A stretch of 64,000 nucleotides of DNA, taken from assembly GCF_026151205.1 (NCBI RefSeq), contig NC_087084.1, forward strand, positions 4,271,538-4,335,537, read 5' to 3'. The translations under genes were made by a program, and so were the position numbers. The notes beneath the pieces are model-generated. The model did no database searches, had not been told where the DNA came from, and saw only the letters and a list, made by a program, of their open reading frames with translations. This DNA comes from Bolinopsis microptera. Taxonomy: Eukaryota > Ctenophora > Tentaculata > Lobata > Bolinopsidae. Position 1 is the first letter of the stretch, and every line of letters starts with the position of its first letter. Of the stretch, positions 2,567 to 41,575 are shown one piece after another.

Positions 2567-4969
2567 CTAAATTGGCGTTTCTGCGATGATATCCTCGTTT
2601 GCTCTTACTTGCGATGCTCCCTCTATTTGATCTCCCATTTCTACAGCAGTAACTTGCAATCTTAAACATGTAGCGCCTCTTGAACATCTAGCAGCAAAAT
2701 TTCTGAATGTCTCACCAAACAACTCTCTGAGAGTGTTATCATATAGCAAAGGGTTGATGACCGAATTGAGGGGTAAAACTATCATAGCGAAGCTTACGTA
2801 CCAATCTGTAGCATCGATTGTTTCGAGATTGTGGAGCCCACTGATGATCATAAATGGAACCCAACAGGCGAAATCTGTGGCTATGACCAGCGCAATCCTG
2901 GTCTGTATTGCTCGGTTTCTGCGGACAGCATCTGGATTGCTACTTTGCCCAGCATTTCTGGATGATTTCCGAGATATAATGTTGATCATCAAATAGGACA
3001 CGGTTATCACCACAAAGCAGAAAAGGTTGACGCCCAACATAAGCCAAACTATCATATTTCCTTTCACGTCGATCATTTCCGTTTCCATGTCCGATATTAT
3101 GCGGTTTCTTCTAGGATCATCACTACGAACAAAGTATTTGAAGAGGCACACACCATCATTTCCGTAAAAGTGCACTGCACTTCTACTCAAGCTTTGGTTG
3201 AACATTCCATCAACTTTCTTGCCGATCTCAGCCCAAGTTGTATTCGCCAAAAAATTTTCAGTTTTGTAGTATGCTTGAAGAATTTTAATATGCTTCATTT
3301 TGTTCGGGAATCCGATAAATAGCTTGTAGAGTGGATCATAGAAGAAACCTTGCACAAAGTAGTCCTCTAATGTGGGGACCAATGGTATGATTGCTACTGA
3401 TATCGATGCAGTAGCGATTCCAATAACGATCCCAATTAATTTTGCTAATGCTCTTTTATTGACAAGGGCTGGAATGCTAAGAGAGCTGTTCAGAATTCCC
3501 CACATCCTGATCAAACTTAAAAGAGTCATCGAAAATAAAGAGAGTTGTGATCCCGCAGTGCTGATAACTCCAAGAACAGAACAAGTATTTCCTGATAACC
3601 ACTCAGCTTGCTTCCTGCAATAATTCTTTCCGAAAATAATGCTGTCGAATACTGATAGTGCGATCAAGTAGACTCCTATTAGGAAATCACCCATTCCGAT
3701 TACACAAATTAGTACTGTAGTGTATAAATTGCTTCTTGTTTCAGAGTCTTTAATACAAGTCGCTACTTTGCACACGGTGATGATATTAAAAATTGCTGCT
3801 AAGAGGCCCAACAACCAGCAATAAAGTTTCAAAAACCAGTTTTGGAGGATTTCCTTGCCACACTCTAGATTGCATTCATCTGAAAGATCAAAACAATCGA
3901 ATCTACCATCACACTTCTGAGAATGAGATATCAAGTGCTCTTTTACTTGATCTGACCGGTTGTTTGTATTCTCACAAACTATATGATTTGTACAGTTTTG
4001 TTCATCCGACATGTCACCACAGTCATCAACAAGGTCGCAAACTTGGCTGTACTTTATGCATTTAGTATTCTTACATTGGAAAATTGTATTTTCATATTCA
4101 ACTACATCAGACATTGTCACAAAAGTCAGGTTATTGTTGTTTGCCAGAGTTTTGACTCGGTCAGGATACTGACCAAGACATGAATCATGTTCTAAAAAAG
4201 TGTCCTGAATAGGACACGTGGAGTTTAAGCATAATCCCATGCAACTGATAAATGCATAATATTCACCGAAAAGACTATTGCAGTTTACTCGAGAGGTCGG
4301 CACATTGAGCATTATATTGACACCGAAAGCAGATCCTGCTGGCCCCTGAAATTCCCGTATATGACATGTTACATTTGTAGAGTCCAATGATTTGCACAAA
4401 TCTCGTCCAGCACATCTTTCATTCACAGCAGTGGTATTGATACTCGGAAAATCTCGCGAAATTCTGCAGACCTCATTTTCAATCTCACAAGAGTTCACAC
4501 CATCACAAAGAAAGTCAAAATGAACATAGCCTTGATCAGAATCTCCAGGACACAACAAAATATCCTGGCAGGTTTTGTTTCCTAAGACAACTCTATAAGC
4601 CAAATCATTTTTCTCTCCACAATATTTCCAAAAGTTTCTTTCTTCATCTTCTCCATTGAGACAATCGGTTTGGTTGTCCATTATCCATTTTATGGGTATT
4701 GTTATATTTCTATCGCCACCAAAACTACGAGTACAGTTGAAGAATCCCACTGTTGTTAGGTGGCATATGTCACGGGTCTCATCACTATTATCTTCACAGT
4801 CACTAACTCCATCACAGAGTTTGTGTTTGTGAACAACACAGTTTGCAGATATTGACCTACAATCGTTTTCTAGATTATCGTCACAGAGACTAATCTTTTC
4901 ATTGGTCAGCTTAAATTCACTTCCACAGAACACATATATAATACTTTGATACACTCGACATGAAACCAT
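2567..4969 (-). CDS. LDLa-repeat 7TM receptor (GRL101/relaxin-receptor-like), C-terminal part of the terminal exon
   Basis: 800 open codons encode a rhodopsin-class receptor with a large ectodomain. LDL-receptor class A modules lie at about residues 29-69 (CDGVSDCEDNSDE), 294-326 (CDLVDDCGDMSDEQNC) and 331-366 (CDGRFDCFDLSDEC), with many N-glycosylation sequons between them. Seven hydrophobic segments lie at about 376-400, 417-442, 463-490, 508-532, 638-663, 691-712 and 722-744. TM6 holds CWVP and TM7 holds NSVINPLLY (NPxxY). The DRY position at the end of TM3 reads IRM, and extracellular loop 2 is unusually long (about 100 residues). The architecture matches Lymnaea GRL101 and LDLa-type relaxin-like receptors; the ligand is unknown. 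The first codons are not a true start: this is the downstream part of a larger exon, joined to the frame at 4917-5726 by an apparent frameshift. The stop codon ends the gene at 2567. Confidence 0.85.
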   Translation of the reverse strand: MVSCRVYQSIIYVFCGSEFKLTNEKISLCDDNLENDCRSISANCVVHKHKLCDGVSDCEDNSDETRDICHLTTVGFFNCTRSFGGDRNITIPIKWIMDNQTDCLNGEDEERNFWKYCGEKNDLAYRVVLGNKTCQDILLCPGDSDQGYVHFDFLCDGVNSCEIENEVCRISRDFPSINTTAVNERCAGRDLCKSLDSTNVTCHIREFQGPAGSAFGVNIMLNVPTSRVNCNSLFGEYYAFISCMGLCLNSTCPIQDTFLEHDSCLGQYPDRVKTLANNNNLTFVTMSDVVEYENTIFQCKNTKCIKYSQVCDLVDDCGDMSDEQNCTNHIVCENTNNRSDQVKEHLISHSQKCDGRFDCFDLSDECNLECGKEILQNWFLKLYCWLLGLLAAIFNIITVCKVATCIKDSETRSNLYTTVLICVIGMGDFLIGVYLIALSVFDSIIFGKNYCRKQAEWLSGNTCSVLGVISTAGSQLSLFSMTLLSLIRMWGILNSSLSIPALVNKRALAKLIGIVIGIATASISVAIIPLVPTLEDYFVQGFFYDPLYKLFIGFPNKMKHIKILQAYYKTENFLANTTWAEIGKKVDGMFNQSLSRSAVHFYGNDGVCLFKYFVRSDDPRRNRIISDMETEMIDVKGNMIVWLMLGVNLFCFVVITVSYLMINIISRKSSRNAGQSSNPDAVRRNRAIQTRIALVIATDFACWVPFMIISGLHNLETIDATDWYVSFAMIVLPLNSVINPLLYDNTLRELFGETFRNFAARCSRGATCLRLQVTAVEMGDQIEGASQVRANEDIIAETPI

Positions 4970-5726
4970 TTATCAAACAGGAACCACCCACTCTGTTTAC
5001 ATCAGTGCAATTTGTTTGTTCTAGATATCTGTAACAGTACGGATAGGTGTACGAGTATTCTTCACTGTGATCAAATACACTACACCTGGTGTAGTTAAAT
5101 ATGGGGACTGTAATGTCCTCTCCCCTCCTCACTTTCTTATAATAATGTATACATGTTGGTATTGTGGTGTTGTTACAGTGCTTCTCATCCTCCTTGTTAT
5201 AACAATCATCATCTGCATCACAAACATAGATTACAGGTATATACTTACTGTAATATTTACTAGGACAGTTAACTCCGTATGTGTAACCCTCACATACACT
5301 CTCATCCTCACAGTAGTCAGAGTCGCATTTGTCGTCACACTGATCTTCGTTGTTGCCGTTGATGAAGCTCTGTGATGATTCCTCACCAGAATTTCTTCTA
5401 CAGTTCTGGTTACACGCTACAAACTGTTGTACTTCTATATTTGTATCGTTCCTAAAATAACCTCCACAGAAATAAATGTTCTGTAAGGTAATTTTCGTAT
5501 GAAAACCACATGCCTGATAACCATACGGGTCATTTTCACACACAGTAGAGACACTAAAGAGTGTGTTACTCTCAGTGCCTGTTACATTATAGGTAGTGTT
5601 CGAATAAGCACACTTGTGGGAAGTACTCTTTTTTACTCTCATTATAACACAAGTGTTTCAAAAATCCCCCGATATTAGTCACAGTGCAGTTTTTGTTTGA
5701 TTGCTGCAAAATTTCGTCAACACATC
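4917..5726 (-). CDS. Cys-rich ectodomain, 5' part of the terminal exon of the LDLa-7TM receptor (two apparent frameshifts)
   Basis: A splice acceptor (CTGTTCAG) ends at 5727. The exon opens in phase 1, matching the phase of the upstream SRCR exon, with Cys-rich sequence including CVDEILQQSNKNC. That frame closes soon after an A6 run near 5629-5634, and the next frame (241 codons, ending at 4917) continues the same Cys-rich, acidic, sequon-rich sequence, including LDLa-like CDSDYCEDESVC and CDADDDCYNKEDEKHC. Near 4925-4985 the reading shifts again into the 800-codon frame. The upstream part of that frame is closed by stops, and no good donor/acceptor pair is obvious. Either the gene is a young pseudogene, the assembly has homopolymer indels, or a tiny intron is present. 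I favour sequence error or a recent lesion, because both sides remain well conserved. Confidence 0.6.
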
Positions 5727-5914
5727 CTGAACAGCGAAATGTTATTATTTAAAAAAATAGAACCAAAACCCAAAATCTGATGCCCTATATTTTCATTGTT
5801 ATGTCGTAGTGCTTATACAGTTATAAGGGCTATTTAGCATTAATTGTATAATGAAATAAATCGTAACTTAATTAGAAAGTTTATTGATAGTTTAAGTTTT
5901 TAAGGTAAACTATA

Positions 5915-8900
5915 CTGGAGTGGGTCCGAGCAGTAGACTCGCGCTACTGACACCCGGGATTGGTAATGCACAGATACAGTTAACGCTGTGTAGCAAGAGC
6001 TTCAGAGGATCCTGCCCGCTGCAGGTATGCTGAGTGGCAGATGCAACAAGCGCACTACTTCCAGCGGATGCAAGATGGCAGTCTGGCCATCAGAGTTATT
6101 CAGAACACTCTCCCTTTTAACTAGAAACATGTTGATGTCAGAGTTTCCAGCCTAATTTTGCTGTAAGAACATTCTCACAGCTTAATGACTAACGGTTCTG
6201 TGTACTGAGGCACAAAACCCCCCTATTTTACTCTCCCTCACTGTCTGTGTGTGGCTGCAGACTCCCAGTGGTCTTATCAGTCATTTTTGGTTGCTTGAGA
6301 TCTTGGACTTGTTGCTAGTGGGCTACCGACCCCTAGCTTTACTCTGGTACTCGCAAAGTTTTTTGCCACGCACCCGTTTATCAACATTACAACGAACTAA
6401 ACAATTACAGCACTATGGTTTCAGCCCCTACCTCTCCTTCTGATAGTCCAGCTCATGATGATGCTACATCTTTAAACCCTTCGGGGAGAGATGCAGCTGA
6501 TGGTATCTGTGTTAAAAGAAGGTCCAACAAAAAACCAAAAATTAACAACAAAATCTCAGAATCATTTCACCTTTCTACTTACAATGTAAGATCTCTCACT
6601 GAAAAATGGAAGCAATGGGAACTTGTGTGCAAAGCCAAAGCCTTCGACATACCTGTGATTGCACTTCAAGAACATCGTATTAAGAAGACTCCTTATATAA
6701 TGCGTGATGGCTACAAGTTCCTCCTAGCATCTCCTCCCCCTAAAAGTAGAACGCTCCTCGGACTTGGCTTCCTTCTTTCCCCTTGGGCCCAACGCTGCTA
6801 CATCGACCATAACGTCTTCTCAGACAGGATAATGTTTGTTTCTTTTACCGGTGCAGTTTGCACACACTTAGTTACTTGTCATTCACCTACTAATGTATCT
6901 ACAGACCTTGAAGTTGAACAATTCTATGCAGAGTTAACTTCTTGTGTCCGATCTTTTCCACCTCATGACGTAGTAGCTATAGCTGGTGACCTGAATGCTC
7001 ACCTTGGAAAAGACACCTGCAACACCAACGCATTTTATGAATGTACTAACCGAAACGGACAGCACCTTCTCGACTTTGCCCAAGAAAACGCGTTCACCAT
7101 CGGTGCGCTAAAGTTTAACAAAAAGCATTCTAAAAAGGTGACTTGGACAGCACCAAATGGTCAACTGCATCAGAATGACCACATCCTCATTCGCTCAAAA
7201 TGGCAGAATTCACTTAAAAACTGTGAGTCATACATTAATCCCTCGGTTCAATCTGACCATCGGATTGTCACAGCGACCATCAAGCTGTCAGTAAGGACCA
7301 GCATCGTCCGACCGAAGGTTATCAAATATTCGACTGGGAGGAGTTAAAAAGTAACACTGCAACTTCAACAGCCTTCCAACTCCAGCTTCAACTTAATGAC
7401 GCAGCAGAGAAAGTACTTCCCAAAAGGAAGAAGACTAGTCTAACTGCTCAAATTTCATTTAATCCTGAGTACCGGGCTGCTGTCAAGGCACGAGATGCTG
7501 CGTTGAAAGATAGTCACAAAAGGAAGACACGAGCTGCTACTAAAGCCCTACGTGATGCCACCCTTGAAGTCAGGAAGGTCGAAACCAGCATACAAGAATC
7601 GTTTGTTAATAAGACAATTGATCAAGTAGATCAGCTGTTTATTCCGCAACCCGCAAACCACTCAGGGTATGCAGCATGGCACACGAAGTCAAACAGCTCT
7701 GGTATTGCGTGGAAGCTTATAAATGACCTTACCAATCATAAGCCTAAATCTATGTCTCCATTACCTGGACACAGAAACAAGGCAGATCGAGCAAAGGCGT
7801 GGACTGACCACTACATCAAACTGCTTTACAATCCTGCTGACAACATCAGAATGGGTAGCTTTGAAGTCCAAAAGCCAGAACTCCCAATTGAAACGTCACC
7901 GTTCTCAGCAGATGAAATATCTACAGCTCTCAAGCAGACAAAGGACACGTACGGTCATGACGGAATTCATCTCTGCTGTACAAGTGTGTTGACTTGGACA
8001 CTACTTTACTATCTCTGTTCAACAACATGCTAGCTACTGGTAAAGCCCCAGAAGAGCTTCTTGTCACTGCCATTCTTCCTATACCCAAAGGAGCTAAAAA
8101 GTTCTGTCCTGAAAATAGCAGAGGCATCTTCATCCTCCCTGTTGCCACGAAAATCTACGACAGGCTGCTTCAAACCGAATCAGGAGCCACATAGAACCTC
8201 GCCTCCGATACAACCAGAATGGTTTCCGGCCTGGAAAAGGGACTCGTGAACAGATTCTGGCTCTTAGACGTATCATCGAAGAGGTTGTGAACTTCCAGCT
8301 TCCTTGTGTCATCTCCTTCATTGATTTCTCAAAGGCCTTTGACTGCATCTTCAGATCTCACCTTCCCGACATCCTGGCTTCCTACGGTTTTCCTAATAAA
8401 ATCATAAAAGCCATTATGTCACTCTTACATCAACACTAATGCTAAAATCATGACCCCTGAAGGTATAACCTTAGAATTCCTTACCAACCTCGGAATTCTC
8501 AAGGGCGATGTTCTTGCGCCTCTCATTTTTATCATCGTCCTGGATTTTATATTAAGACTGGCAATAGGGCCACGTGATGGGTTTAAAGTTGGCAGTAACT
8601 ACATTGCTGATTTGGACTTCGCCGATGACCTAGCAACAATTACTGACAGCTTCAGCGAAAATGGCCGCCTTTGCCAAAGCATTTCTGACATAGCAGCCCG
8701 TTATGGTCTCCTTATTAACATCGAAAAGATCAACTACATGTCCTACAACGTCCCGCGACCTGTCAACTCAGACGAAAGAGTCTTTATTAACGGCATCCCT
8801 TTAGAAGAAGTTCATGACTTTAAGTACCTAGGATCTTTTATAGCCTCAACAAGCAGAGACATCAATGTCAGGAAAGGCCTCGCATGGAAAGCTTTACAGA

Positions 8901-9393
8901 GTCTGGATGCTTTTTGGAAATCTAGTATGTCTATGAAGATCAAGACTAAGATTTTTCGAACTGCAGTAGAACCTGTTCTGCTGTATGGCGCAGAAACCTG
9001 GACTCTTAAAAAGGCTGATATTAGAGCACTAGACGGTGTTTATACTAGAATGCTACGAAGGGTCTTTGGTATCTCATGGAAATCACATACACCTAACTCC
9101 GTTTTTTATGGAAAGATTCCATCGGTGACAGATACTATAAAGACACGAAGATTTCGTTTTGCAGGGCATGTCTACCGTCTACAGGACCAACCTGCCCAAC
9201 AACTCCTTTTTTGGCAACCATCCTACGGCCAGCGTTATCGAGGACGACCACATAAGACCTTCCCGGATGTTCTACTCGAAGACACTGGAATGGAACCTTA
9301 CCAGCTGCGTTTGCTCATGTGTGATAGAGATAAATGGAGAGAAGCGTTGACACGAAACTCGTTCCAGATTTCATCTGGATCGACCTAGGCAGG
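5915..9393 (+). mobile_element. Non-LTR retrotransposon (RTE-like LINE), degenerate copy
   Basis: Plus-strand LINE with a 5' leader (about 5915-6414), an APE-type endonuclease region and a reverse transcriptase broken by frameshifts. The C-terminal segment is of the RFAGHVYRLQDQPAQQ type seen in RTE-like elements of invertebrates. The 5' boundary is approximate. I found no poly-A tail and no target-site duplication. The element sits inside the receptor gene, antisense to it. Confidence 0.8.
6415..9388 (+). pseudogene. LINE endonuclease/reverse transcriptase polyprotein with several frameshifts
   Basis: 6415-7347 encodes the APE-like endonuclease: STYNVRSL, IALQEHRI, IAGDLNAHLG and a C-terminal QSDHRIVTATI (the SDH motif). 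A frameshift near 7310-7340 moves the reading into the frame that contains 7503-8033 (linker and start of the fingers). Further shifts occur near 7975 and between 8160 and 8200; 8200-8437 then carries NGFRPGKGTREQI and FIDFSKAFD (first catalytic Asp region). After a stop near 8438 and another shift, 8450-9388 carries FADDLATIT (the catalytic DD pair), the thumb and the C-terminal RRFRFAGHVYRL region. At least four frame changes make the copy non-autonomous. It is ordinary for its family, and I infer no host function. Confidence 0.8.
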
Positions 9394-9399
9394 GCATAC

Positions 9400-9551
9400 C
9401 TGTATTACTAAAGCAGTGGAGCCAAATATTGTCCTCATGTTGACAGTTGTGTCTCAAAATCCGGGAATCGCAATCTGATATGTCAATATCATTCTCTTTA
9501 CAGCTTACGTCATCCATTACTATTGACATGTCAGTTCGTTTCAGCCAATCC
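9400..9551 (-). CDS. Receptor gene exon 4: second half of the SRCR domain
   Basis: 152-nt exon with acceptor ATTCAG ending at 9552 and donor CAG|GTATGC at 9400/9399. It enters in phase 2 and leaves in phase 1, exactly fitting its neighbours. It encodes the C-terminal SRCR half: MDDVSCKENDIDISDC followed by the HNCQHEDNIWLHC pattern, which is the conserved SRCR end (Cys, His-x-Glu-Asp, Val/Ile-x-Leu-x-Cys). SRCR domains are secreted or cell-surface ligand-binding modules. The donor lies within about 10 bp of the LINE end, so insertion could have affected splicing. Confidence 0.75.
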
Positions 9552-9667
9552 CTGAATGATTGAATGGTTTGGTGCAGATTGCAGAATGTTCGGATATTCA
9601 AAATAGCAAAGAAACAGCATTTCCATTGCAACAGAAACTAAAATGTTGACATATAAATCAAACTCAC

Positions 9668-9908
9668 TCAGGAACATATTTCATGTTTCTCGGATTACTT
9701 CCCCAGTCAGAGAAGTGATGTCCAATTGTCCAGCAAAAAAGCTGTGCCGAATACCAGTTAAACGCATTCTTGCAAACTGTTCCATTTTTCACCATACCAG
9801 TTTGCTTGTTAAAAACTGTTGCGATCAAAAGACCCCCGCTATCATTAAGTTTTTTCGTTCCAGTCACCATGTTGATAAGAGATGCTCTCTCAAACTCCCA
9901 CACACGCT
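9668..9908 (-). CDS. Receptor gene exon 3: first half of the SRCR domain
   Basis: 241-nt exon with acceptor TTGTTTCAG ending at 9909 and donor GA|GTGAGT at 9668/9667. It begins in phase 1 and ends in phase 2. It encodes GTVCKNAFNWYSAQLFCWT, the SRCR motif (G-x-V-C-x-x-x-F-x-x-x-x-A-x-x-x-C), preceded by a strand-rich segment (GGLLIATVFN). Joining the donor to the acceptor at 9552 keeps the frame and gives an uninterrupted SRCR domain with about 115 bp of intron. A nearer AG (only ~30 bp from the donor) would break the frame. Confidence 0.75.
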
Positions 9909-10129
9909 CTGAAACAATTATGATAACAGTTAGTGAAGAATCGTATTTTTGAAAGAGCGAATTTACCCTCATTTAACATTCATTGATCCTCCCATGACTG
10001 GTTTGATAATACACGAAATCGCAGTATCGGATCAAACAATGTCTAAAATATAAATTTAATTACACTTCTTAAAATAATAACATTGTCACCCACATCTGTA
10101 CTAAGGTACTATACTACCAAAGCACTAAC

Positions 10130-10594
10130 CTATATTATAATAAGAGGTAGTGCTGCCTGTACTAAGCTCTATTCTGCTCACTTCTCTTCCCCAATAAGTA
10201 TTCCATTTTACATAACTACACGTTTCAGATGATGCTGTTATGTCGAGTACCTGTTTTCCATTACAATATACTATGATCCTGTAGCCACGTTTCTCTACTA
10301 CCCAGTGTTTATCTGTTTCTGTAGGTAGACTCTGGAAGGGAGTGTTGCCTAACTGACAAAAGTGAAGCCAATACTTTACACGAGTACTGAACTGGATACC
10401 AATACCTCCTACTTCTTCTCCTTCCTCACTATAGAAATATATCCCTATCTCCTCCCCACTACCGACAGTGCTGTCTGTTCTCAGGTGCAGGTAAGAAGTA
10501 TCCAGATCAGCAGGGATACTTTTGTAATTAACCACAGGGCTCCACTTATCTGTTGATTTGTAAGTTATGATAAACTGGGTTGAAATGTTTTGAG
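10130..10594 (-). CDS. Receptor gene exon 2: farnesoic-acid-O-methyltransferase-like (FA) extracellular domain
   Basis: 465-nt symmetric phase 1-1 exon with acceptor GTTGCAG ending at 10595 and donor ATAG|GTTAGT at 10130. The 155-residue product is a beta-rich domain with the landmarks TDSTVGSGEEIGIYFY, TDKHWVVEK, YRIIVYCNGKQVLDI and a Cys before KWNTYWGREVSRIEL. The plus-strand gene at 41138-41575 encodes a clear homologue, and such domains are usually annotated Methyltransf_FA (PF12248-like). Despite the name I see no methyltransferase motif. In this mosaic context a structural or carbohydrate/ligand-binding role outside the cell is more likely (inference). Confidence 0.65.
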
Positions 10595-10664
10595 CTGCAA
10601 CACGGATCTTAGAAATGTCGATTATTAGAATTATAATATTATATAATATATATATAATATATAA

Positions 10665-11305
10665 ATTTAATACTTTCAACACTACTATATAACAAATAAT
10701 TTGAGATAACGATGTTTAATAAATGATGCAAAGAATTTCGAAGATCTAATCAACACCGACTTTTAATGTGTAGGAGTACAGCAACGAAATATATATATAT
10801 ATATATAAGTTTTTTAATTATTTTCAACACTACTACATAACAAATAATTTGAGGATGACTGTAAAGGTACATTTTACCGACAATTGAAGTCAAGGCATTG
10901 TTTTACTGACAGTTGTGGCTGACTAACAATATATATATGAGAAGACTTGATTATGAACATCTCAGTTACAATTAATAATTTGATTAATACGGTAGATGGG
11001 GTGAGTTATTTTCATAGTGCAAATTTTAAAACCATAGAACCATCTTATAATGAACATTATGGAATGATAAAAGGCTTATCATGGTTGACGGTTAAAGTTA
11101 CAGAATGGAAACGTGCAATATGTATATCGTAATATACATGATTTAAAATGTATTACCTAATATATATATATATATATATTTCATGGCTGGACTTCTACAC
11201 AATAAAAGAAAGCGGTTGTGATTAGATCTTCGAAAGTCTTTGCATCGTTTATTTACATCAATTCTCAAATTATTTGTTATATAGTAGTGTTGAAAGTATT
11301 ATTAT
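10665..11305. repeat. Inverted repeat with ~90-bp arms and AT microsatellites
   Basis: 10665-10755 recurs in reverse complement at about 11218-11305; both contain CAAATAATTTG and the AGATCTTCGAAA block. A third partial copy lies at about 10812-10853. The arms enclose about 460 bp with short (TA)n tracts (10791-10806, 11161-11180). It is a foldback or MITE-like repeat in intron 1 of the receptor gene. Confidence 0.55.
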
Positions 11306-11318
11306 TATATATATATAT

Positions 11319-11413
11319 CCTGGGTTTGTACAGGACATTACTCGCTCAAATTATTACAATAGCGATACATAATACTCAATAAATTTAATAGATTTGTAGT
11401 GTTGCAATTAGTT
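11319..11413 (+). repeat. Dispersed repeat, copy 1 (copy 2 at 48473-48575)
   Basis: About 95 bp beginning TCCTGGGTTTGTACAGGA and containing CATAATACTCAATAAAT. It matches 48473-48575 on the same strand with roughly 85 percent identity. No coding content. Confidence 0.55.
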
Positions 11414-13140
11414 TAAGATTATATATGAATTAGTAATAACTAGCAGGAACCCGCCTAACCCTAAAGTGGTATCAAGACTCAAGAGACTAAAATAATTATT
11501 ACCTAATTAATTCGCGTTTTTGACACCACTTGGGGGTCCAAATTCTGGGCACTAAAATTCTTATTCCTCGGCCAATTTTTTATTTTGTCATGCTGATTTG
11601 AAGGCCATTAAAGCATTTCAACCAGTCAAAAAAATATAAGTTGTATATCTTTTACGGTTATAAAATCATCACGGGAAAGTTTTAATATGTGATTTGTTAC
11701 CAGCATTTTTTATATGTTCGTAATTATTTGTTTTTCGCCCCTCAGGAATGAATAGTACAACCCCTTTCAAGAGTCCTTTACTGCATAATTAATTTGTATT
11801 TCGTCCGAAGGGCTTTCCATAAAAAAAATACTTGGTCCATTTATTGATGTTTCACTTTTCACAGCAGTTTCCTTTTCAGAGTTTGAGTTTATATTTAGAA
11901 ACTAACCATACTATTTTTTAGATTTATGTCACTCATGATGGCTCCGGCTGAAAGTACTATGACTCATTTTATCTAGAAGATTGTAGTTTCATTGCTTCTG
12001 AAGTAGCTATCAGTTCGCCGGTCAATGTTGGGTATAATACACTTGTTATTTGTTTTTTAATTCAGTTTCACACGTAAGGTGCATTCGTGTAGATTTTTTT
12101 ATTGTGTATGGAGTTGGACATGGGTGAGGTTAGCACGTGGGATTTTAGGGTTAGTGTTAGTCACGTGAGGGTTTATACGTGCATTCTTCTTTATTTTTCT
12201 TCAGAGATTTAATGGTTTAGTATTTTAGGATTTTAGTAAGTAGGGGGAGGTTTGGTCGAATTTGTCAATACCTTGAGATATTGACGAAATCGATTAAATC
12301 TTCCCGGGGGATATAGTGTAATGTGGAAGCTGGTTTCAGCAGTTTAAGTGTAGTGATATTTTAGTTAGGATATTGTAGTTTAGTGAATTATACCTTTATG
12401 ATTAGTGCTTGATTAGATTTGATTAGTGTTGTAGATTAGGATTGGTTTTGGAGGTCACGCGGTAGTCAGGGTAGTTAGTTAGGTTATATTATTGGACACA
12501 CTGAGCCAAGTGTTGCCGAGTAACGCAGTGCTGGTAATTCTCATCTGTTACAGTCAGTTCTTAGGGTGGCTTGCTAGGTGCAGTTTAAATAAGTTACCGC
12601 TGCCGAAAAACACTGTAACGTGGCCGGCGAGTCACTAGTTTCGTTTATTGATTGACTGTAATTTATCACGCTTCGAAACTTGTTGTTCGAATACACTGTT
12701 TCCTTTGTTCATACCTTACTTAGGATCCGATCAAGTCATTCGATCATATTGAAAGTAATACGGCACTCAGTAGCCTGTAAGAGTTAAAGTACAATAGTTA
12801 CCGATACTTGAATTAGCGTATTATTCATTTATCACAGCACGTGTTTCTTGCAGAGCTAGAGGTTTGTAAGTATCCGTGTACGACACTTCATTATCGTACC
12901 CTTGTTATATCTTTTCAATTACAGTACTTCAGATTGTTCCCCTTCTCTGCAGTACCCGTACGATACTAAAATCTCGTACCTATCGTGTTAGATTAGCGTT
13001 CGATACTTGATTATATCGTGGGTTTTGTGGGGATTTGTCGCAGGACGACTAAGTCAGTATAGTGTGTAGTGAGTAGTACTTGTGAGCAGGCAGTGTTTAC
13101 CATTGGTACGCCCCGGGAGGATTAGTCTGGTCGCTACACC
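11414..13140. other. Non-coding intronic stretch, including a GT-skewed block and a possible degenerate LTR
   Basis: No supported ORF. From about 12040 to 12480 the plus strand is strikingly G- and T-rich. 12500-13140 has a different, more balanced composition and ends abruptly before a LINE fragment at 13190. The block could be a solo LTR or other transposon remnant; I found no matching ends or target duplication. The whole stretch lies in intron 1 of the minus-strand gene. Confidence 0.35.
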
Positions 13141-13189
13141 TTATTTTACTCTACAACTATCCTCTGCACTGGATCCCACAACATGGTAA

Positions 13190-13384
13190 AAGAGGTAAAA
13201 CTCGAAAAACTGGTTGTCATGTGTCCGAGAGGATGCAGCAATCTTCACAGGTGTTGATAACATTAGGATAGAAGATGCAGAACAACTAGCAACAAACAGG
13301 GTACAATGGAGAGGTCTAATACACCGGTGAAAGGAGTTACTATGTGGTGCAGGCCACTCCAACGACCTTTTCAAGTACAAGTAA
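13190..13384 (+). pseudogene. Short LINE ORF2 C-terminal remnant
   Basis: One plus frame reads REDAAIFTGVDNIRIEDAEQ, then LATNRVQWRGLI, then a stop, then KELLCGAGHSNDL. The pattern of Ala-x-(D/N)-Arg-x-x-Trp-Arg near a C-terminus is typical of LINE polyproteins, often the last part to survive 5' truncation. An in-frame stop and the short length mark it as dead. Confidence 0.4.
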
Positions 13385-13570
13385 GTATAAGAAGATGGTT
13401 AGCTATTATGTAAAGTTTGAAATTGAAGGAGTTTGAGGTAACTAAAGGAGTAGACTGTAAAGGGCGCTGAAGGCAATCTTCTGAGATAGCTGGAAAACAT
13501 TTTTATCCGGAGATACCGTAATTAAGTATGTTCTATTTTAGAGAATTCACAATTCAGAGCAGTGACTCAC

Positions 13571-13691
13571 CCTGGTTCCCCTTCACAGTTTCAACATCTT
13601 CTGTGGCCTCAGTTCTCACACCATCATTAAGCACCAGCGTTAAACTGCAGGTAGAAAAATTTAGCAACACTATCAGGTTAACAATCACCAT
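13571..13691 (-). CDS. Receptor gene exon 1: signal peptide
   Basis: An ATG at 13691 (minus) opens MVIVNLIVLLNFSTCSLTLV, a classic short N-region, hydrophobic core and small-residue cleavage area, followed by a short acidic linker. The exon ends at a strong donor (CAG G|GTGAGT) in phase 1, the phase used by every downstream exon of this gene. I choose this start because the sequence upstream has no in-frame coding extension and the ATG lies directly before the signal sequence. Linking it to the FA exon across a ~3-kb intron is inference from phase, strand and order. Confidence 0.6.
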
Positions 13692-13875
13692 GGCTTTTTT
13701 TAGAAGAAACAAGATTTATATCCGATTATAAGTATACCCTAACCTCTATAGCTCTATCTATATACCAGGCATCTCGGGGAAAATAAAAGTGCATTGTATA
13801 GAATAAACCCGGTATAAGGAAAAATCAGATATACCCCATTAGAGCATTACATTATTGTGCCGGGTACAGGACATA

Positions 13876-14606
13876 AGGATGGGGAACACGAGGGCGGGGA
13901 ACACGAGGACGGGGAACACGAGGACGGGGAACACGAGGGCGGGGAACAAGAAGGCGGGGAATAAGAGGGCGGGGAACAAGAGGGCGGGGAGCACGAGGAT
14001 GGGGAACAAGAGGGCGGGGAACAAGAGGGCGGGGAACAAGAGAGCGGGGAACAAGAGGGCGGGGAACAGGAGGGCGGGGAACAAGAGGGCGGGGAACACG
14101 AAGGCGGGGAACAAGAGGGCGGAGAATATACGGGCGGGGAACAAGAGGGCGGGGAACACGAGGGCGGGGAACAAGAGGAGGGGGAACAAGAGGGCGAGGA
14201 ACAAGAGGGCGAGGGACAAGAGGGCGGGGAACAAGAGGGCGGGGAATAAGAGGGCGGGGAACACGAGGACGGGGAACACGAGGGCGGGGAACACGAGGGC
14301 GGGGAAAAGAGGGCGGGGAACAAGAGGGCAAGGAACAAGAGGGCAAGGAACAGGAGGGCGGGGAACAAGAGGGCGGGGAACACGAAGGCGGGGAACAAGA
14401 GAGCGGGGAACACGAGGACGGGGAACAAGAGGGTGAGGAACAAGAGGGCGGGGAACAAGAGGGCGGGGAACAAGAGGGCGGGGAACAAGAGGGTGGGGAA
14501 CAAGAGGGCGTGGAACACGAAGGCGTGGAACACGAAGGCGGGGAAAAAGAGGGCGGGGAACAAGAGGGCGGGGAACAAGAGGGCGGGGAACACGAAGTTG
14601 GCGAAC
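13876..14606 (+). repeat. 15-bp GC-rich minisatellite (GGGGAACAAGAGGGC)n, about 48 copies
   Basis: Tandem array of a 15-mer whose main variants are GGGGAACAAGAGGGC and GGGGAACACGAGGAC, with occasional 14-bp units such as near 14305. Because 15 is a multiple of 3, several frames on both strands stay open and give artificial repeat proteins (Pro-Ser-Cys, Leu-Phe-Pro-Ala or Gly-Asn-Lys-Arg-Ala). The plus strand is purine-rich with regular G4 runs, so G-quadruplex or triplex structure is possible. It lies about 190 bp upstream of the receptor start codon. Confidence 0.9.
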
Positions 14607-14609
14607 ACA

Positions 14610-17027
14610 GCCCTTGTGTTTGGTTCCAATTGTGTGGTATTGTCATGGAATAAAGCTCAACATGTAGTCGACACAGAATGCGATAAGAGCTATTATGATA
14701 AATCACATTTCTTCCACAAAACTAGCTAATTAACTTAAAGTTTGGGGAAAAGGCGGGGCCGATATATCGATGTACTCGATATAGAGTGGCACGGTATATA
14801 GATTATAGACTTATAGAGGTTAGCTTGTAAAACGTCGGTTTGTTCATTCATAATTCATGATAGGAGGCAGTACGCGGCACAAGCCATGCGTTACGGAGTA
14901 AGTTATTTAAATTGATAGATCATTTCCTTTTGTTTGGAAAATGAATACACTGGGACGGTCCACTCAACCTAATTTTTATTTAAAATGTATGTACCCGAAC
15001 CTCTTATTCTTCAAAGTTTTAATTAATTAAGTTAACTTGAATAGAAAAATGTGTTTTATTTGAGAAAAGACACATATATATCAGTATTTCTTACCCTATC
15101 AAAGATGAGATCACGAAGCACCTCATATCGTCGTTGTAAAAAGTGCTCCTAAATTCTCATCAACTCTAGCAATCTTGAAGAAGTAAAATAAAACATAGCA
15201 AACAGTCGAATAAACTTAATAAGTTAAATTAAAGACACATAGGAAGGAATGATGGGTAGCGGGACAGTAAACAGTTTGTCAATTTGGAGGGTAGGGTCAC
15301 GTCATGGGAGAAGGAATATGATTCATAATTGGATAAATAAGTTTTATTAATTATAGGGGAATAATTTCGTACAATGGTATGTTTATTTGCATTAAACTTA
15401 ATAAGTTGATGGAGGGCGAAAAATGGAGGGTTCATTCAACTATTTGGAGATCGTGAAATCGAGTGTTCTATAGATGTGGATACTGGCAGGGAGGTGATAC
15501 ATGTTTGTTTACTTTAATAGTAAGCCCCTGTTATATATATTAGGCGGTTTGAAGAGGTGATACATGTTTGTATACATTTTTAGGGTAAGCCCCTGTTTGG
15601 CGGGTTAAGGAGGTGATACATATTTTGTATTATGGAACGCTTGTAACACTTGTAACGCCTTCTTGTTACCCCCCCCCCCCCCCCCCCCCCCCCCCTTTGA
15701 AGGCCCCGAATTATTTTCTGAACGAAAGCTCAAAAATAATCGAGAAATCGACCTTCTTATTAACTCATTTTGATGACTGTTTCTGACCTAAAATTGCACG
15801 AAAATCGATTTAGCTAGGTTTCAGACACTTCCTTATCCCTCAAAATTGATGTTTTATAGTTGATACGAGCAACAAGCAACATATATTCTGATCCTTCGGT
15901 TCTACTCATGACCTAGGGAGTTAAGCTGAAACCGAAAGATCGAGGCAATCCTCACCTTAACTGATCAAACTGGTACTAACACAATTTTCAGATATAAATG
16001 TTCTTTGCGATACGTTTATTGCAGCTTTGCAACTTGAGTGAAGACCAGAGTACGAAAACACACAGCAGGTAAGCAACTCAATTTTGGTGACTGTTCCTCA
16101 CGAACATTCTGATCCTGTAACATAACAACAAGGAGATCGTCTCCTAAACAAATCGAACAGGTACTAATTACTATCACAATTTCCAGAGCAGAGCATGATA
16201 ACAAAGTCAAAAGAAACACAATGAAGGTAGGTTACGAACACCACAATATAACAATCATACTAACAACTGGATTACATTTATTCTGATATGATGACGGGCA
16301 GCCCTGATTTGCTTCGTGATCCTCAACGAGCGACCAATTGTAATAGAGGTGTTATGTCACGTGACACCGATCCGTCCAATCACAAACATGAGTGTCACAC
16401 TTAAAGTGATTGTTATCATCAAATTGTACAGCTTTAGTTATATTGGTAACACTTGTTATATTATGTTATATTATGTTATATTATGTTACATTATGTTATA
16501 TTATGCTATATATTATGAGTAATATCATTGTATTGTGCGACTTAAGAAATATAAATATTATACCCAGATTTCTACAGGCTAGATAACCTGGAAAAGTAAA
16601 CAAAAGATCGATTTTTTCAATAAACCTGTCCCATTTTGATACGGTATTCTGTACCAACCAGTTTATGCTATTCTATCGCAGATTTGGTTCAGAATCCAGC
16701 ATCATGGTGAGAAACGGTTGATAAGTCATTGTCACGTGATCGTAGCCATCATAGACACCGGGTCGGGTGTGGATGATCCGATAATTAGTGCTAGATAACA
16801 GTCAGAATATATACGACTTACCAATGTAATCTGAGAAATTTTGTGGAGTAGACTGAGAAATATCCGGATTTAAGATTGGCGAGGATAGCGAAGAGAATGA
16901 TGTAACAGAATTTCAAAAATACCTCGATTTAAGGACGGAAATAATTTCGAAACAATCCCTCCCGTATGAGCTAATTTGATCTGTAACGAGAAATGACCGT
17001 ACTACTGACGATGCTTAGAATGTGATA
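14610..17027. other. Intergenic stretch with short repeats
   Basis: No supported gene. It holds three imperfect ~60-bp tandem units around GAGGTGATACAT (15488-15625), a poly-C run (about 15668-15696) and a 10-bp microsatellite TTATATTATG repeated about six times (16447-16510). The rest is ordinary AT-rich DNA. Confidence 0.5.
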
Positions 17028-19123: not shown

Positions 19124-21088
19124 TCATGTACTGGCCAGAGAGTCGACGAATTTCTTGCGGTTGTTAAAACACGTAGTGGCAAATCTAGCAACGACTCTCG
19201 TGAGGTGGACTTGACTTTCATTCGTGATTAATTCAATGATTTCACTGTTGTTGCTGATGAATTTGAGCACGTTTGCTCCAGGGATGACAGTGTAAACAGA
19301 ACAAGATGACGCAGATGGTTTGATTGAATTTGATATGATTGATTGGATCTTGTCTAGGACTTTTCGCCTCGATGCAGCGTTAAGATCACAATGGTTAAGG
19401 AAGTGATCTTCATTCTCAATAATACCAGAACCTAAGACTATATTGCACCAGGAGCATATTCGCTCATCGCGAGGAGTTTGATTATATCGGCCAAGTTCAA
19501 TTTCGAGTCGATGTGCACTGATCCGCAGTCTTGTGATATTAGCACGGTCTGCATATTTAATGACACTGTCTAGGTAATACTCTTTGTTAAATTTGGATTT
19601 TAGGTCACGATAGAATTCTAATTTCCGAGAAGTGTTGATACAGGACCCCCAATATTCTCTAAAGCTACTTTTCAAAGTTTTAGTAATGACGTGTGGTGTG
19701 AATATTTTACTCCCGATGGGTTGTGTTGATTGCGGAGGAATTCGTTTCTTGAAACCGTTGTGAATAAGAAAGTCCTCTTTTGGTGGTTTTGCGATACTCG
19801 GGTTACTTTCGAAAATTGACTTGGAGTGATTGTTTTTGAGTGTGCGGTAGGCTGTGACATGTTCGGTAGAGAAACATGGGTCTAGCGCGAGGACAGGCTC
19901 CAAACCTCTGTACCAGTCCAATTTCATGTTCATCTGTTCTTTGAAAGCTAAGGATACAAGGGAGTTATCTTTGAGATTTTTCAAGCGTTGGGTATATTTG
20001 AGAGTGAGGTTAATACATTCATAGATTAATGGGTAGCGGCCTGACTCACCCCAGACGCCTGCGTTACTGGTTTTACGATTTACACCCAGTGACCATTTAA
20101 GAAAGTGAAGGTGAACTTTTTCGCTGTCCAGAAGACTAATTTTCTTGAGGATACTAGTTTGAAATTTTGTTTTTGTGTCGGGATCCATATTGAGATCGAC
20201 TTGTTTTGTTATGTGTTTTATGATAGCCATATTAGGTGTGTAAATAGGCGCTCCGTAAAGAACGATAGGTTTAATAAGAGCGTCAAAGAGTGTTGTTAGA
20301 GAACGGAATGATAATTTGGATTTGTTTACTGAGCTTTTCATGCCATAAAGTGCACGCATGGCTTTCTTTTTGAGCTCAGTTCGGGCATTTGTGAATGTGC
20401 CGGATTTGTGTATTTCGATTCCTAGATAACAGTATGACTCGACTTCTTCTAACAAGTGATTACCTATTTTGAGGGGAACCGGCTGATAATTATCGAAGCG
20501 GGAATTAAATTTCATGAGTTTAGTTTTATTTGCATTAATTTCGACGCCCCATTCCAAGCAGAAATTGTTCAAAGCATCGAGTTGCTTTTGGAGGGTTTTG
20601 GGGTCCAGTGCCAAGAGTATCAGATCATCTGCCCATAGTAAGTGACTGATAAGTTGGTTCATTAGTTTTGGACAGTTATCAAATTCTAGTCGAGGGGAAA
20701 GATCTCTAATGTATATTTTAAAAAGATCAGGGGAAAGTGGATGACCCTGTTCAGTTCCTTTATTGATATCAAATTTTTCGCTGACAAATCCAGATAGCTT
20801 TATCTGGCCAGTGGAATTTTTATACATATGTTTAAGAACATTAAATGTTTTGCCAGTGATACCTAGTTTAGCTAACTTTAAGAAAAGAGCTTCACGACAA
20901 ACAGAGTCGAAAGCTTTCCGGAAGTCCACGAAAACAGCATAGACGGGAACCTTGAGCTTTTTGTATTTAGACGTAATGGTGTTGAGTGTGAGTATGTGGT
21001 CATATGTTTGAGCTCCTTTAGCGAAGCCAAGTTGATTTATGGGGTCCGGGTTGTATTCATTTTTGAACTTGATTATCCTGTTTAGCAT
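19124..21088 (-). pseudogene. LINE reverse transcriptase, C-terminal 654 codons
   Basis: The frame carries RT block motifs VFVDFRKAFDS (about residue 55), GTEQGHPLSPDLFK (about 110) and WADDLILLAL (about 153), then a long C-terminal region with WGESGRYPLIYE and a Cys/His cluster (CSWCN ... DHFLNHC). It aligns by eye along its whole length with ORF2 at 27613-30990. Upstream, 21089-21235 continues as RT sequence (WNNSIITPLHKKG) in a shifted frame with a small deletion. The endonuclease is missing, so it cannot mobilise itself. Confidence 0.8.
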
Positions 21089-21235
21089 AATGGTCGAGAA
21101 TAGTTTCCCGATTGTACTACTCGCCTTTTTTGTGTAGGGGTGTTATAATGCTGTTGTTCCACGGGTAAGTTCCAGTGTCCAAACAGCGGTTAAATACTTT
21201 GCAAAGGAGTTGTGTATTTGTTGTGGACAAGCTCC
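19124..21235 (-). mobile_element. 5'-truncated LINE (same family as the copy at 26.77-32.02 kb)
   Basis: Minus-strand LINE carrying the end of the RT fingers through to the C-terminus. Coding homology stops at about 21235, next to a dispersed repeat, as expected for 5' truncation. The region 18750-19123 may be its 3' UTR. No poly-A tail is evident. Confidence 0.8.
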
Positions 21236-24920: not shown

Positions 24921-26750
24921 GTTAAAAAAAAAAGGTTTCCCCAAATTTTAAATTAACCCTTTTTTCAATTTCCCCAAAAATGTTGTTTGGGTGGGGGGAT
25001 GGACTCCGGCCGGAGAATAAATGAGAATTAGGCTTACAATAAAAAGGGGGAATTTTAGGCGTTTGTAAATTTTAAAATTGTTATAAAACTTTAATAAAAA
25101 AAATACTGAAAATCCCACTCCTAAGGTAGGGCACAAAAATTAAAAATTTAATACCCGCGTGGTTTTTCCCAAAGCCTCTCCCCGCCCCCTGTCCCAAACC
25201 CCCAAAACCCCCCCCCTTATAAAAAACTTTAAAATTTTAAAAGAGTTGCCCAGTTTTTAAAAAATTTCATTTCTTTTTCCCATTAAACCTTTTTTGCCAT
25301 TTCTTTAAATTTTTTTTTTGGGAGGGTCTAAAAGTTTAGTGTTTTTTTTTTTTTTCAAATTAAAAACAACCTAAAATACAATCAGACTAAATTAATTTTT
25401 GAATTACGCACCCCAATTCATTCCCAAACCCCGGGGTGACCCCCCCTTAAAAACCCCCTTTAAAAAGGCTTTTAAAAAGTCGTGTTAATGGTTACAAAAA
25501 ATTTTGGGCCTTTTTCGATTGTTTTTTTCCCCTTGTTTAAATTTTAAAAATAAAAAAAACTGTTAGCCCCCTTGGGTTAATCCACTCCCCGCCCCCCAAA
25601 AAAAAATTTAATGGGCCCTTGGGGCCCCTTTTAAAAAATTTTCCTCCCCGGTGGTGGGGACAAAGAAATTATCCGGGAAAATTTTGTTTTCCGCCCCCGG
25701 TCCCCCCGGTTATGTTATTTTAAACCCCCCTTTTTCCTACGGGGTTTCCCCGCCGCTGCAAAGGGGGTACTCTAAAGGAAAACCCGGGGTTAAGCTACTT
25801 TAAATTTAAAAGATTGTTGCGGTTATCATAGGGGCTGTGAACCCCTTTTTTACGGGGTGGTAGGACCCTTTTTTTCCAGGCGCTGGTAAAATTTAATTAG
25901 GGCTGGGGCGGAACAAAATTTCCCGGGCCCCCGGCAATAAAATATGTTTCCCAGGGGGGTAGGGGGGAAAAAAAATATTTTTTTTAAACCTCGGGCCCAA
26001 AAACATAAGATTTTTCCCCCGGGGGACATAAAATTTTTTTCCCCAAAGGGGGTTTCATTTATATAATTTTTTAAAAAAACCCAAATTTTAAAAAACCCCA
26101 AGAAAAGGCGCCCCCAATTTTGAAAATGGTAAAACTCAAAGGGTTAAATTTAACCAACATAAAACGCGATTAGGGTGGGAAAAACCAATGGGTTTAATTT
26201 AATTTCAGTGGTTTATAAAAAAAAGGGGTTAATTAAATTTTAATGAGTGTAAAATTTTAAAAACAAATTCTTTCCCTTAAAGGAAACACCTACCCCAAAA
26301 ATAAAAGTTTAAGGCATGTTAAGAATTTCAATGGGGGAAAGAAGAAAATATTTTTTAAAAAACCCTTTTAAATTTACGTTTAAAAATTTACTTTAGGGGG
26401 CTTTCAAGGGGGGGGTTTTTTTTGGGGGGCCCTTCCCCGGGCCCTAGGCCCCAAAAAAAACGCAAACCGGTGGGTTAAAAGGATTTTATTTTAAAAAACC
26501 CTGGGTTTAATTTGCGGGTTTTTAAAAAACCTTAAAAATAAAACCTTTTTTACTAGCTTTAAACATTTAAAAAGCGGGAAAAAAAAACCTTAAAAAAAAA
26601 GGGCCAAAATTTTTAAAAATTTTTTCCCGTTTAAAAATAATTTATTTTTATCCCCAGGACCCCTTAGGGGTTTAAGGGTTCTTATAAAAACAAAATTTGG
26701 GGGTTAAGCCAATCCCAAAATTAAATACAAACGGGTAATTACCAAAAAAG
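21890..26750. other. Low-quality consensus tract (homopolymer-inflated)
   Basis: Base texture changes sharply at about 21890. Runs of 4-10 identical A, T, C or G follow one another almost continuously (for example 22040-22090, 22760-22800), poly-G exceeds 25 at 24889-24919, and dinucleotide structure is lost. Normal texture returns at about 26750, inside the 5' part of a LINE ORF1. This is what an unpolished, low-coverage long-read consensus looks like. No ORF within it is reported as a gene. Confidence 0.7.
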
Positions 26751-26943
26751 GGGTAATGGCCCAGAAAGAATAGAAATTTGCCCGAGATCCCCGCGCAAGA
26801 CAAGGACCAACAGAGATATCCCCGGTCTTCCTCCTGAGCGAGGCCAAAGAGAGTCATACAGAAGGAGTGAGAGGATCAACACCGATCACAGGAACAGTTC
26901 CAGAAATGGAAACACTACACACTCATCTGATCGATCTAAAAGA

Positions 26944-27540
26944 TTGAGTAAATCATCAGCACGGAAGAAACCGAAAGTGGTCCTTCTTTGTGACTCAACT
27001 ATGCGGAGTTTCAAGTCAGAGGAGTTCTCCAAGAGATATGATGTCTCCATGATCTACAAACGCAGCTGGGACGAGCTCAGCTCCTGTTTGGGTGAAACTG
27101 CTGAGGAGATATCAAACAAAAACCCAGACGTAGTTTACATCCACCTTGGTGCTCATGACATCACGAATGGCCAACCGAGTGATTCTCTAATCAACACCTT
27201 TGTCCAGAGCACTGAAAAGATCCTCCGAGAAACATCACAAAAGTGCAAGGTGGTCATCTCTCATCCAATCATCTGCAATCAAACCGATGGAGGGGGACTT
27301 AGAGCCAGACAACTTATCTCGGAGGCAATTCACAATCTCAAAGATGATAGAGACAAAGCAGACTTCTGGACTAGAACTCGGGAGAACAAGAACTCCAACT
27401 TCTTTCCTGAAGATTCGGAACTTCCTCACAATTACATGTTGACCTCAAACAAATCTCAGCTCAACGACAGGGGTATCAGGGTCATTATGGGCAACTTCAG
27501 GACCAGCCTCGACAACACTTTCACCAGAGGCTCTCGTTAG
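26944..27540 (+). CDS. LINE ORF1: SGNH/GDSL-esterase-like protein
   Basis: 198 codons are shown, but the frame is open upstream to at least about 26780, so the given start (a TTG) is not the real one. The upstream part is Ser/Arg-rich and basic, typical of nucleic-acid-binding ORF1 leaders. The rest has SGNH-fold landmarks: KVVLLCDSTMRSF (block I position), VVYIHLGAHDITNG (block III, GxND replaced by GAHD) and a late LNDRGIRVIM block. The Ser of block I is in CDST rather than GDS. In CR1-like LINEs this domain is thought to aid RNP or membrane association. ORF2 starts 72 bp downstream. Confidence 0.7.
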   Translation: MSKSSARKKPKVVLLCDSTMRSFKSEEFSKRYDVSMIYKRSWDELSSCLGETAEEISNKNPDVVYIHLGAHDITNGQPSDSLINTFVQSTEKILRETSQKCKVVISHPIICNQTDGGGLRARQLISEAIHNLKDDRDKADFWTRTRENKNSNFFPEDSELPHNYMLTSNKSQLNDRGIRVIMGNFRTSLDNTFTRGSR

Positions 27541-27612
27541 TCCTTTTTCATTTCTTCATCTTTTCACCTTCTTTTCGTTTCTCTCCAGGTCCCTCTCTGA
27601 CCTTTCCTCATC

Positions 27613-41137: not shown

Positions 41138-41575
41138 GTTGGTTACCAGTGATACGTGAGGTGGAAATAGAGTGGGATCTTCAGTCGACACCTTTAGAAA
41201 TTAAAACTAATAGTGTGCTGGGGAGTGGCGATAAGGTGGTAGTGGACTTCTACTCTGCTGGGGGAGCATATGCAGGAAGAGTCGGGCTCTGGTTCACCTC
41301 TACTCCGGGATACTTAATCAACTGGTGCGGCATGTCCTACACTAACCTCCCTGTTAATCTCCCCTCTCCTACTGACAAGGTGTGGCGTATCACTCTAACC
41401 AGAACTGCAGGTGTTAGAGTAGTGATACACTGTAACGAGGTAGAGGTGCTCAACATACTGCTCTCTCAAGCAACGTGTAGTAACAGTGACTGGAGCACGA
41501 TCTGGATCTGGGACGTAGCAAAGATAATGTTCCATCCCGCCGACACAGCATCTGATTACTACGCAACACAACCAG
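41138..41575 (+). CDS. FA-like extracellular domain exon
   Basis: 438-nt phase 1-1 exon with acceptor TTAACAG ending at 41137 and donor CCAG|GTGACT after 41575. The 146-residue product is homologous to the minus-gene FA exon: SVLGSGDKVVVDFYSAGG, a Trp-Cys pair near the middle, TDKVWRITLTRT, VRVVIHCNEVEVLNILL, then Cys-SNSDW and a final DTASDYY. Three Cys are shared in position with the other copy. The family is usually labelled farnesoic-acid-O-methyltransferase-like. With a signal peptide upstream and Cys-rich modules downstream it acts outside the cell; the ligand is unknown. Confidence 0.75.

Follow-up and report, generated by a model that had tools for sequence, protein, structure and literature searches.

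Predicted galectin-like, SRCR and LDLa modules on an LGR-like seven-helix receptor family of the ctenophore Bolinopsis microptera, seen from a frame-broken copy

Introduction

Does a row of five minus-strand exons in the genome of the ctenophore Bolinopsis microptera encode a single mosaic receptor and, if so, what might that receptor recognize? The exons lie in a 64,000-nucleotide stretch of contig NC_087084.1 (assembly GCF_026151205.1, positions 4,271,538 to 4,335,537, forward strand), hereafter the window. An earlier reading of the DNA, made from the letters alone (the sequence-only reading), joined them into one gene for a signal peptide, an 'FA-like' domain, an SRCR domain, a Cys-rich region, LDLa repeats and a seven-transmembrane (7TM) domain. 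It suggested that the product could be a multi-ligand or pattern-recognition G-protein-coupled receptor (GPCR). We find that this proposal is real at the level of the family, that one domain was mislabelled and that the window copy is damaged. On balance, we lean towards the view that the receptor copy in the window is one frame-broken member of a ctenophore recognition GPCR family with a galectin-like/SRCR front, an LDLa stalk and an LGR-like core, working as proposed below.

Results

The exons belong to one gene of a multi-copy family

The proposed exon layout holds: the five exons follow each other in N-to-C order with splice phases 1-1, 1-1, 1-2 and 2-1, and all borders are GT-AG (Table 1). 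Their order, strand and borders are repeated in paralogs far above chance. According to Pfam, exons 3 and 4 (E3 and E4), when joined, encode an SRCR domain (PF00530; 1.8e-9, 38.3 bits against a curated cut-off of 26.1), and the E4 piece alone scored 27.4 bits. The last exon (E5) contains LDLa (1.4e-14) and 7tm_1 (1.3e-11), as had been claimed. The four upstream exons (E1-E4) of the window copy are intact.

Table 1. Coordinates of the receptor copy and associated features in the window
Feature	Position	Strand	Description
Exon 1	13571..13691	-	Start codon with good surrounding context; hydrophobic leader followed by a short linker; end phase 1
Exon 2	10130..10594	-	'FA-like' domain of the sequence-only reading; predicted galectin-like beta-sandwich; site-level positive selection
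Exon 3 (E3)	9668..9908	-	SRCR domain, N-terminal half
Exon 4 (E4)	9400..9551	-	SRCR domain, C-terminal half
Exon 5 (E5)	2567..5726	-	Cys-rich region, LDLa repeats, LGR-type 7TM; two frame breaks in the window copy
1-base insertion	5620 (near)	-	Unique to the window; absent in 8/8 close paralogs compared
7-base insertion	4936..4950, near 4,943 (approximate)	-	Unique to the window; absent in 8/8 close paralogs compared
LINE-type retrotransposon	6337..9393	+	Endonuclease and reverse transcriptase pieces (Pfam); antisense to the receptor, in the E4-E5 intron

The signal-peptide start at 13,691 recurs in some copies but not in all. Of the seven aligned copies, five have an open ATG frame (the window, L046 and L050 by script; L048 and L049 by visual inspection), whereas the frame is broken in L047 and L014. 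We suspected that exon 1 might begin instead at an acceptor near 13,645, as divergent copies align to it only from about that position onward. Because the frame is open in most aligned copies, the start at 13,691 was kept as the better reading. Just upstream of exon 1 lies a GC-rich array of short repeat units (window 13850-14640), several frames of which are open and account for the long open reading frames listed there.

The genome (264,652,675 bases in 232 contigs) was searched with individual exons. Of two glutamate receptors that it encodes, one had the Mnemiopsis leidyi ML032222a structure as its best match (407 bits), as expected for a ctenophore, and the other was closest to kainate receptors. 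An 800-residue exon 5 query gave 57 rows at 56 loci; as 56 of 667 candidates were scored, this count is a lower bound. The exon 2 search yielded at least 151 matches (150 listed; 150 of 434 candidates scored) and the exon 3 search 87 matches (97 of 97 candidates scored). Within 20 kb upstream of the scored LDLa-7TM loci, and on the same strand, an exon-3-like SRCR match was present at 28 of 56, an exon-2-like match at 23, and both at 23. Near these loci, no exon-2-like or exon-3-like match occupied the opposite strand and one of each lay downstream. The first 26 rows of the exon 5 search included 25 with an exon-3-like match and 22 with an exon-2-like match. The chance expectation of such pairing was put at 0.3-0.6% per locus. 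For exon 1, 14 of 15 genome matches (itself included) had a same-strand receptor core 7-59 kb downstream, and one had none.

A copy on contig C10 (1589.2k-1600.9k; loci L046 and L001), 97% identical to that of the window, comprises five exons with GT-AG borders throughout, and its 1,378-residue product is open. L043 has one open frame that covers SRCR (1.3e-10), LDLa (4.2e-10) and the beginning of the 7TM domain, with 53% identity to window residues 12-610, before it meets Ns. E3-E5 were jointly open, with matching phases and GT-AG borders, in nine of the 14 copies examined (in L014, to the end of the fetched piece). Among the other five, L008, L011 and the window copy are broken, and L009 and L012 could be placed in neither group. 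The E4-E5 intron spans only ~0.2 kb in copies such as L004. Together, the pairing counts, the five-exon C10 copy, the copies with open E3-E5 and the L043 frame make a separate gene for the front exons unlikely. Judged on this genomic pattern, the exons are one gene of a multi-copy family and not a chance row, which upholds the idea of one mosaic receptor gene. The sequence-only reading had named FA/SRCR exons in a separate gene as the outcome that would defeat it; the family evidence goes against that outcome.

Some members are more elaborate. L014 has separate exons for SRCR (2.8e-11), TSP1 (1.7e-14) and SRCR (4.5e-9) upstream of its galectin-like exon, together with a further two-exon SRCR recognized by similarity to its counterparts; the single-exon SRCR halves of this copy gave no Pfam match. 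The upstream SRCR1 of L008 scored 25.6 bits for PF00530, just under the cut-off. No trace of the paralogs' upstream SRCR1 exons was detected at E ≤ 1 between exons 1 and 2 of the window. Directly after the galectin-like exon of L014 there is a short repeated-unit array (5390-5610, around GTGGTGTTGTGGTGACGTCAC).

Galectin-like exons also occur away from receptor cores. A second one in the window (41098-41583, plus strand) adjoins none of the 56 scored cores and has no Pfam match at E ≤ 0.01. Clusters of such exons lie at C2:17.42-17.46 Mb, C3:2.21-2.22 Mb and C4:15.50 Mb, again with none of the scored cores beside them; those on C2 and C3 are interleaved with SRCR matches (exon-3-like on C3). 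The clusters possibly encode secreted proteins or other receptor families assembled from the same modules.

Exon 2 is predicted to adopt a galectin-like fold

The label 'FA-like' referred to Methyltransf_FA (PF12248). Pfam gave no such match in the window exon or, at E ≤ 1, in any of its 33 relatives (0/33), and this identity was rejected at the sequence level. A search of the genome for PF12248 likewise gave no match, but its controls were silent too and the search was uninformative. No family other than Laminin_G_3 (best 0.028) was matched by two of these relatives at E ≤ 1, and the galectin family PF00337 was not among the 10 families listed. A sequence search of the PDB with the 33-member exon 2 alignment returned weak matches only (best 0.21).

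An AlphaFold2 model of the domain, based on the 33 sequences, had a mean predicted local distance difference test (pLDDT) score of 88. Among the 50 matches that Foldseek listed, the best reached 1.7e-5, and TM-scores by query length were 0.41-0.56. A second structure search, also with 50 matches listed, gave Z scores of 10.3-11.4 and root-mean-square deviations (rmsd) of 2.7-3.5 over 118-132 residues at 4-14% identity; the top match had a Z score of 11.4 and an rmsd of 2.8 over 121 aligned residues. The matches listed in both searches were galectins, galectin-related proteins or fungal galectin-type lectins. The alignment of the 33 relatives has seven invariant columns. Exon 2 is thus predicted to encode a galectin-like beta-sandwich, a statement about its fold and not its function.

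The galectin-like exon shows a site-level signal of positive selection

The ratio of nonsynonymous to synonymous change (omega, dN/dS) was estimated over ungapped codons, using eight copies for the galectin-like and SRCR parts and seven for the LDLa/Cys and 7TM parts. L008, with its broken frame, was left out of the selection sets, and the window copy out of the exon 5 set. In the galectin-like alignment, the first 12 columns and the gap-adjacent columns were dropped, which kept 117 codons. Omega was 1.30 for the galectin-like exon (bootstrap 0.80-2.22), 0.80 for SRCR (0.47-1.66), 0.43 for the LDLa/Cys part (0.32-0.58) and 0.17 for the 7TM domain (0.11-0.25). Values of dS were 0.095, 0.099 and 0.093 for exon 2, LDLa and 7TM, respectively, and those of dN were 0.124, 0.043 and 0.016. 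A codon-model likelihood-ratio test (LRT) of the galectin-like exon omega against 1 gave 3.89.

Site models M2a and M1a were compared for the galectin-like, SRCR and 7TM parts. The LRT was 50.4 for the galectin-like exon, with 13% of codons at an omega of ~8.4, and 1.85 and 0.62 for SRCR and 7TM, respectively, which therefore carried no site-level signal. The largest LRT in 32 null simulations was 6.22. For the galectin-like exon, the LRT was still 40.2 when L004 was removed, 29.3 when gaps were trimmed more widely and 41.1 when the SRCR topology was used. In these alignments, the domain shows site-level positive selection; only the site model was significant, and whole-exon omega was not by bootstrap. 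Nine sites had a posterior above 0.9 (exon 2 residues 23, 40, 50, 52, 75, 77, 83, 129 and 146). Counting strands, we infer that several of them fall on strands equivalent to the sugar-binding face of galectins.

Across nine copies, mean pairwise DNA identity was 0.881 for exon 2, 0.940 and 0.935 for the two introns that follow it, and 0.954 and 0.944 for the two SRCR exons.

The receptor core is LGR-related

The best PDB matches of the 7TM domain were RXFP1 (8e-14), LHCGR, TSHR and FSHR, with LGR4 lower. At the end of the third transmembrane helix (TM3), where E/D-R is expected (ERW/DRY), all seven copies checked have IRM; NPLLY is retained in TM7. Pfam listed no leucine-rich repeat (LRR) family for the window exons at E ≤ 0.1 or for an intact paralog at 0.01. 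On sequence similarity, the core is LGR-related, but no LRR was found of the kind that LGR type C receptors have between LDLa and 7TM. Nor is it an adhesion GPCR, a class with a 7tm_2 core and GPS/GAIN: 7tm_1 alone was listed for the core, and GPS did not appear in the Pfam results.

The window copy carries two frame breaks

The last exon of the sequence-only reading is not a single open frame in the window but consists of three overlapping frames (5587-5748, 4917-5657 and 2567-4969), the result of a 1-base and a 7-base insertion. These were recognized by aligning it with eight close copies of 93-98% DNA identity over ~3.1 kb; a further 95% identical fragment lies on C8. The frame that enters from E4 runs into a stop codon at 5,587-5,589. 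As assembled, the coding length is ~372 codons (121+465+241+152+137 bases before the stop) and the membrane part is absent. If expressed, this copy would give a truncated secreted protein of ~372 residues. Its sequence most likely marks it as a pseudogene or a copy with a truncated product; an assembly error is possible. As copies vary in intactness, single gene models of this receptor family may be unreliable.

A retrotransposon, unmentioned in the sequence-only reading, fills most of the E4-E5 intron. The element is a long interspersed nuclear element (LINE) type. Its open-frame pieces span 6,337-9,388, its 3' border lies near 9,393, and its end is ~6 bases from the E4 donor. Of the best 40 of 169 genomic candidates, 30 begin at window position 9393. 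The same junction is found in the window, L001, L23 and a decayed place on C10, and the insertion predates these duplications. It is not by itself lethal to the gene, since L001 carries the junction yet stays open.

Other elements in the window

A second LINE-type element (27601-30990, plus strand) contains a long open frame of 1,129 residues with endonuclease and reverse transcriptase domains, and a 271-residue open frame (26725-27540) lies just upstream of it. A reverse-transcriptase open frame of 672 residues occupies 19124-21142 on the minus strand.

Discussion

Proposed role and alternative explanations

Intact members of the family, known here from one ctenophore genome, encode a signal peptide, the predicted galectin-like beta-sandwich, at least one SRCR domain, a Cys-rich/LDLa stalk and a seven-helix core resembling those of LGR/relaxin receptors, with TSP1 in one copy. 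The architecture, the family, the frame breaks and the selection contrast can be read from the DNA itself; the galectin-like fold comes from modelling. We infer the ligand type and the signalling. The distal galectin-like and SRCR modules would bind a varied ligand of non-self or environmental origin, for instance a glycan from microbes or prey. From there, the LDLa stalk may pass the binding event to the 7TM domain, much as the LDLa module transmits it in relaxin receptors, and the 7TM domain would signal through G proteins. Between copies, the galectin-like exon would diversify and the signalling core be held constant. We read the whole as a putative lineage-specific recognition GPCR family. 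The role suggested in the sequence-only reading is still conjectural in this account, with backing from selection on the galectin-like exon against a constrained 7TM and from the additional SRCR and TSP1 modules that L014 carries. Selection grades from a fast-changing distal domain down to a 7TM that is frozen, which directs attention to the ligand-facing part. A predicted lectin-fold domain with site-level positive selection on a GPCR goes beyond what had been noted for this DNA. The family is a candidate on which to test how an animal of an early-branching lineage may recognize microbes, prey or partners via G-protein signalling.

Several observations weigh against this account. Galectins bind sugar through H-x-N-x-R and W-x-x-E residues, and these are not visible by eye in the exon 2 alignment; the Foldseek TM-scores (0.41-0.56 by query length) are moderate. 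The whole-exon omega of the galectin-like exon is compatible with 1 (bootstrap 0.80-2.22, P 0.13), and the site test was run with our own script using fixed relative branch lengths. In the intron stretch preceding exon 2, identity among the nine copies is just 0.525, against 0.935-0.954 after the exon, which places exon 2 at the edge of a well-kept block, where gene conversion may shape the contrast. Because IRM replaces DRY/ERW in 7/7 copies, G-protein coupling is uncertain. As regards the gene itself, the full 1,378-residue L001 product had no SRCR match at E ≤ 0.01, although its joined SRCR piece matched; in L005, L007 and L009 the acceptor of exon 2 does not lie where it was assumed; and no SRCR exon was found within 20 kb upstream of 28 of the 56 scored loci.

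Those 28 loci suggest that the 7TM part can stand without SRCR, and the exon distances range from 0.8 kb to beyond 17 kb, as they might if two neighbouring genes, one for a secreted galectin-like/SRCR protein and the other for an LDLa-7TM receptor, had been duplicated together. We regard such a pair as very improbable, given SRCR, LDLa and the first part of 7TM within one open frame at L043, the agreement of E3-E5 phases and GT-AG borders in nine of 14 copies, the ~0.2-kb E4-E5 intron of copies such as L004, and the lack of any opposite-strand exon match. A different doubt concerns the window copy alone, which would be functional if both frame breaks were assembly errors or belonged to one allele. 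Its E1-E4 are intact, neither insertion occurs in the eight close copies, and long reads often err by a single base. The second break, however, is a 7-base insertion, unlike a homopolymer slip, and further damaged copies (L008, L011 and genome matches with internal stops) indicate that decay is usual in this family; we therefore think an undamaged window copy unlikely.

Two explanations of the fast exon compete with selection on a recognition surface. Instead of point-by-point selection, galectin-like exons might have undergone gene conversion or exchanged cassettes, or the parts downstream might have been homogenized, and the excess of changes would follow from that. Donors could be found among the at least 151 related exon-2-like matches, contig C10 holds several of the close copies, the trees of FA and SRCR disagree in places, and the drop in identity before exon 2 looks as if the block kept alike begins there. 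For the selection contrast, conversion among copies is the chief technical concern. Set against it, the site signal persists on the SRCR topology and without L004, and exon 2 has a dS close to those of LDLa and 7TM with a dN about three to eight times theirs; we hold this explanation to be doubtful but a serious competitor. The other would make the family one of chemosensory or peptide-hormone receptors, relaxin/GRL101-like, with structural front modules and a fast exon under relaxed constraint. The 7TM domain is closest to RXFP1 and the glycoprotein-hormone receptors, the whole-exon omega is compatible with 1, and a GRL101-like receptor has been proposed as chemosensory in starfish (PMC6267866). 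Relaxed constraint alone gives no site class at an omega of ~8, none of the 32 null simulations reached one fifth of the observed LRT, and the seven invariant columns indicate a fold under constraint. We accord this explanation a similarly tentative place and retain recognition by a diversifying galectin-like front as our preferred reading.

Comparison with known receptors

The predicted exon 2 domain resembles galectins in its beta-sandwich over ~120 residues (Z 10.3-11.4). It differs from them in its 4-14% identity, the absence of a PF00337 match and of visible canonical sugar-binding residues, and in being a cysteine-bearing module of a membrane receptor.

With LGR type C (RXFP1/2 and Lymnaea GRL101), the Bolinopsis family shares a class A LGR-type 7TM and LDLa modules in the ectodomain, of which GRL101 has several (PMC4079206, on LGR types). 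It differs in having galectin-like, SRCR and TSP1 modules and no LRR by Pfam, and IRM where ERW/DRY is expected. In other studies, LDLa is found on choanoflagellate rhodopsins (PMC12716839), and GPCR clades are described as having radiated independently in ctenophores (PMC13231562). In the literature surveyed, in the portions available, no LGR-type class A receptor is reported to carry SRCR or a module of galectin-like type, and the accessible parts of PMC8242945, PMC7308585 and PMC6208332 describe none; Figure 3c of PMC11797021 could contain one. The part of that paper's legend consulted lists LDL for the SRCR panel and 7TM for another.

SRCR does stand in front of a 7TM in adhesion GPCRs of sponge and amphioxus, in amphioxus also with LDLa (PMC4302439, PMC2246102). 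Those receptors are of the adhesion class, whereas the Bolinopsis core is an LGR-type 7tm_1 with no GPS listed. Finally, the family resembles the SRCR-rich immune expansions of sponge, sea urchin and Mnemiopsis in its multi-copy SRCR proteins with mixed modules. For Mnemiopsis, PMC11797021 reports SRCR expansions with novel domain combinations and 12 SRCR genes that changed on Vibrio re-exposure. In the Bolinopsis family, by comparison, SRCR is coupled to a seven-helix receptor.

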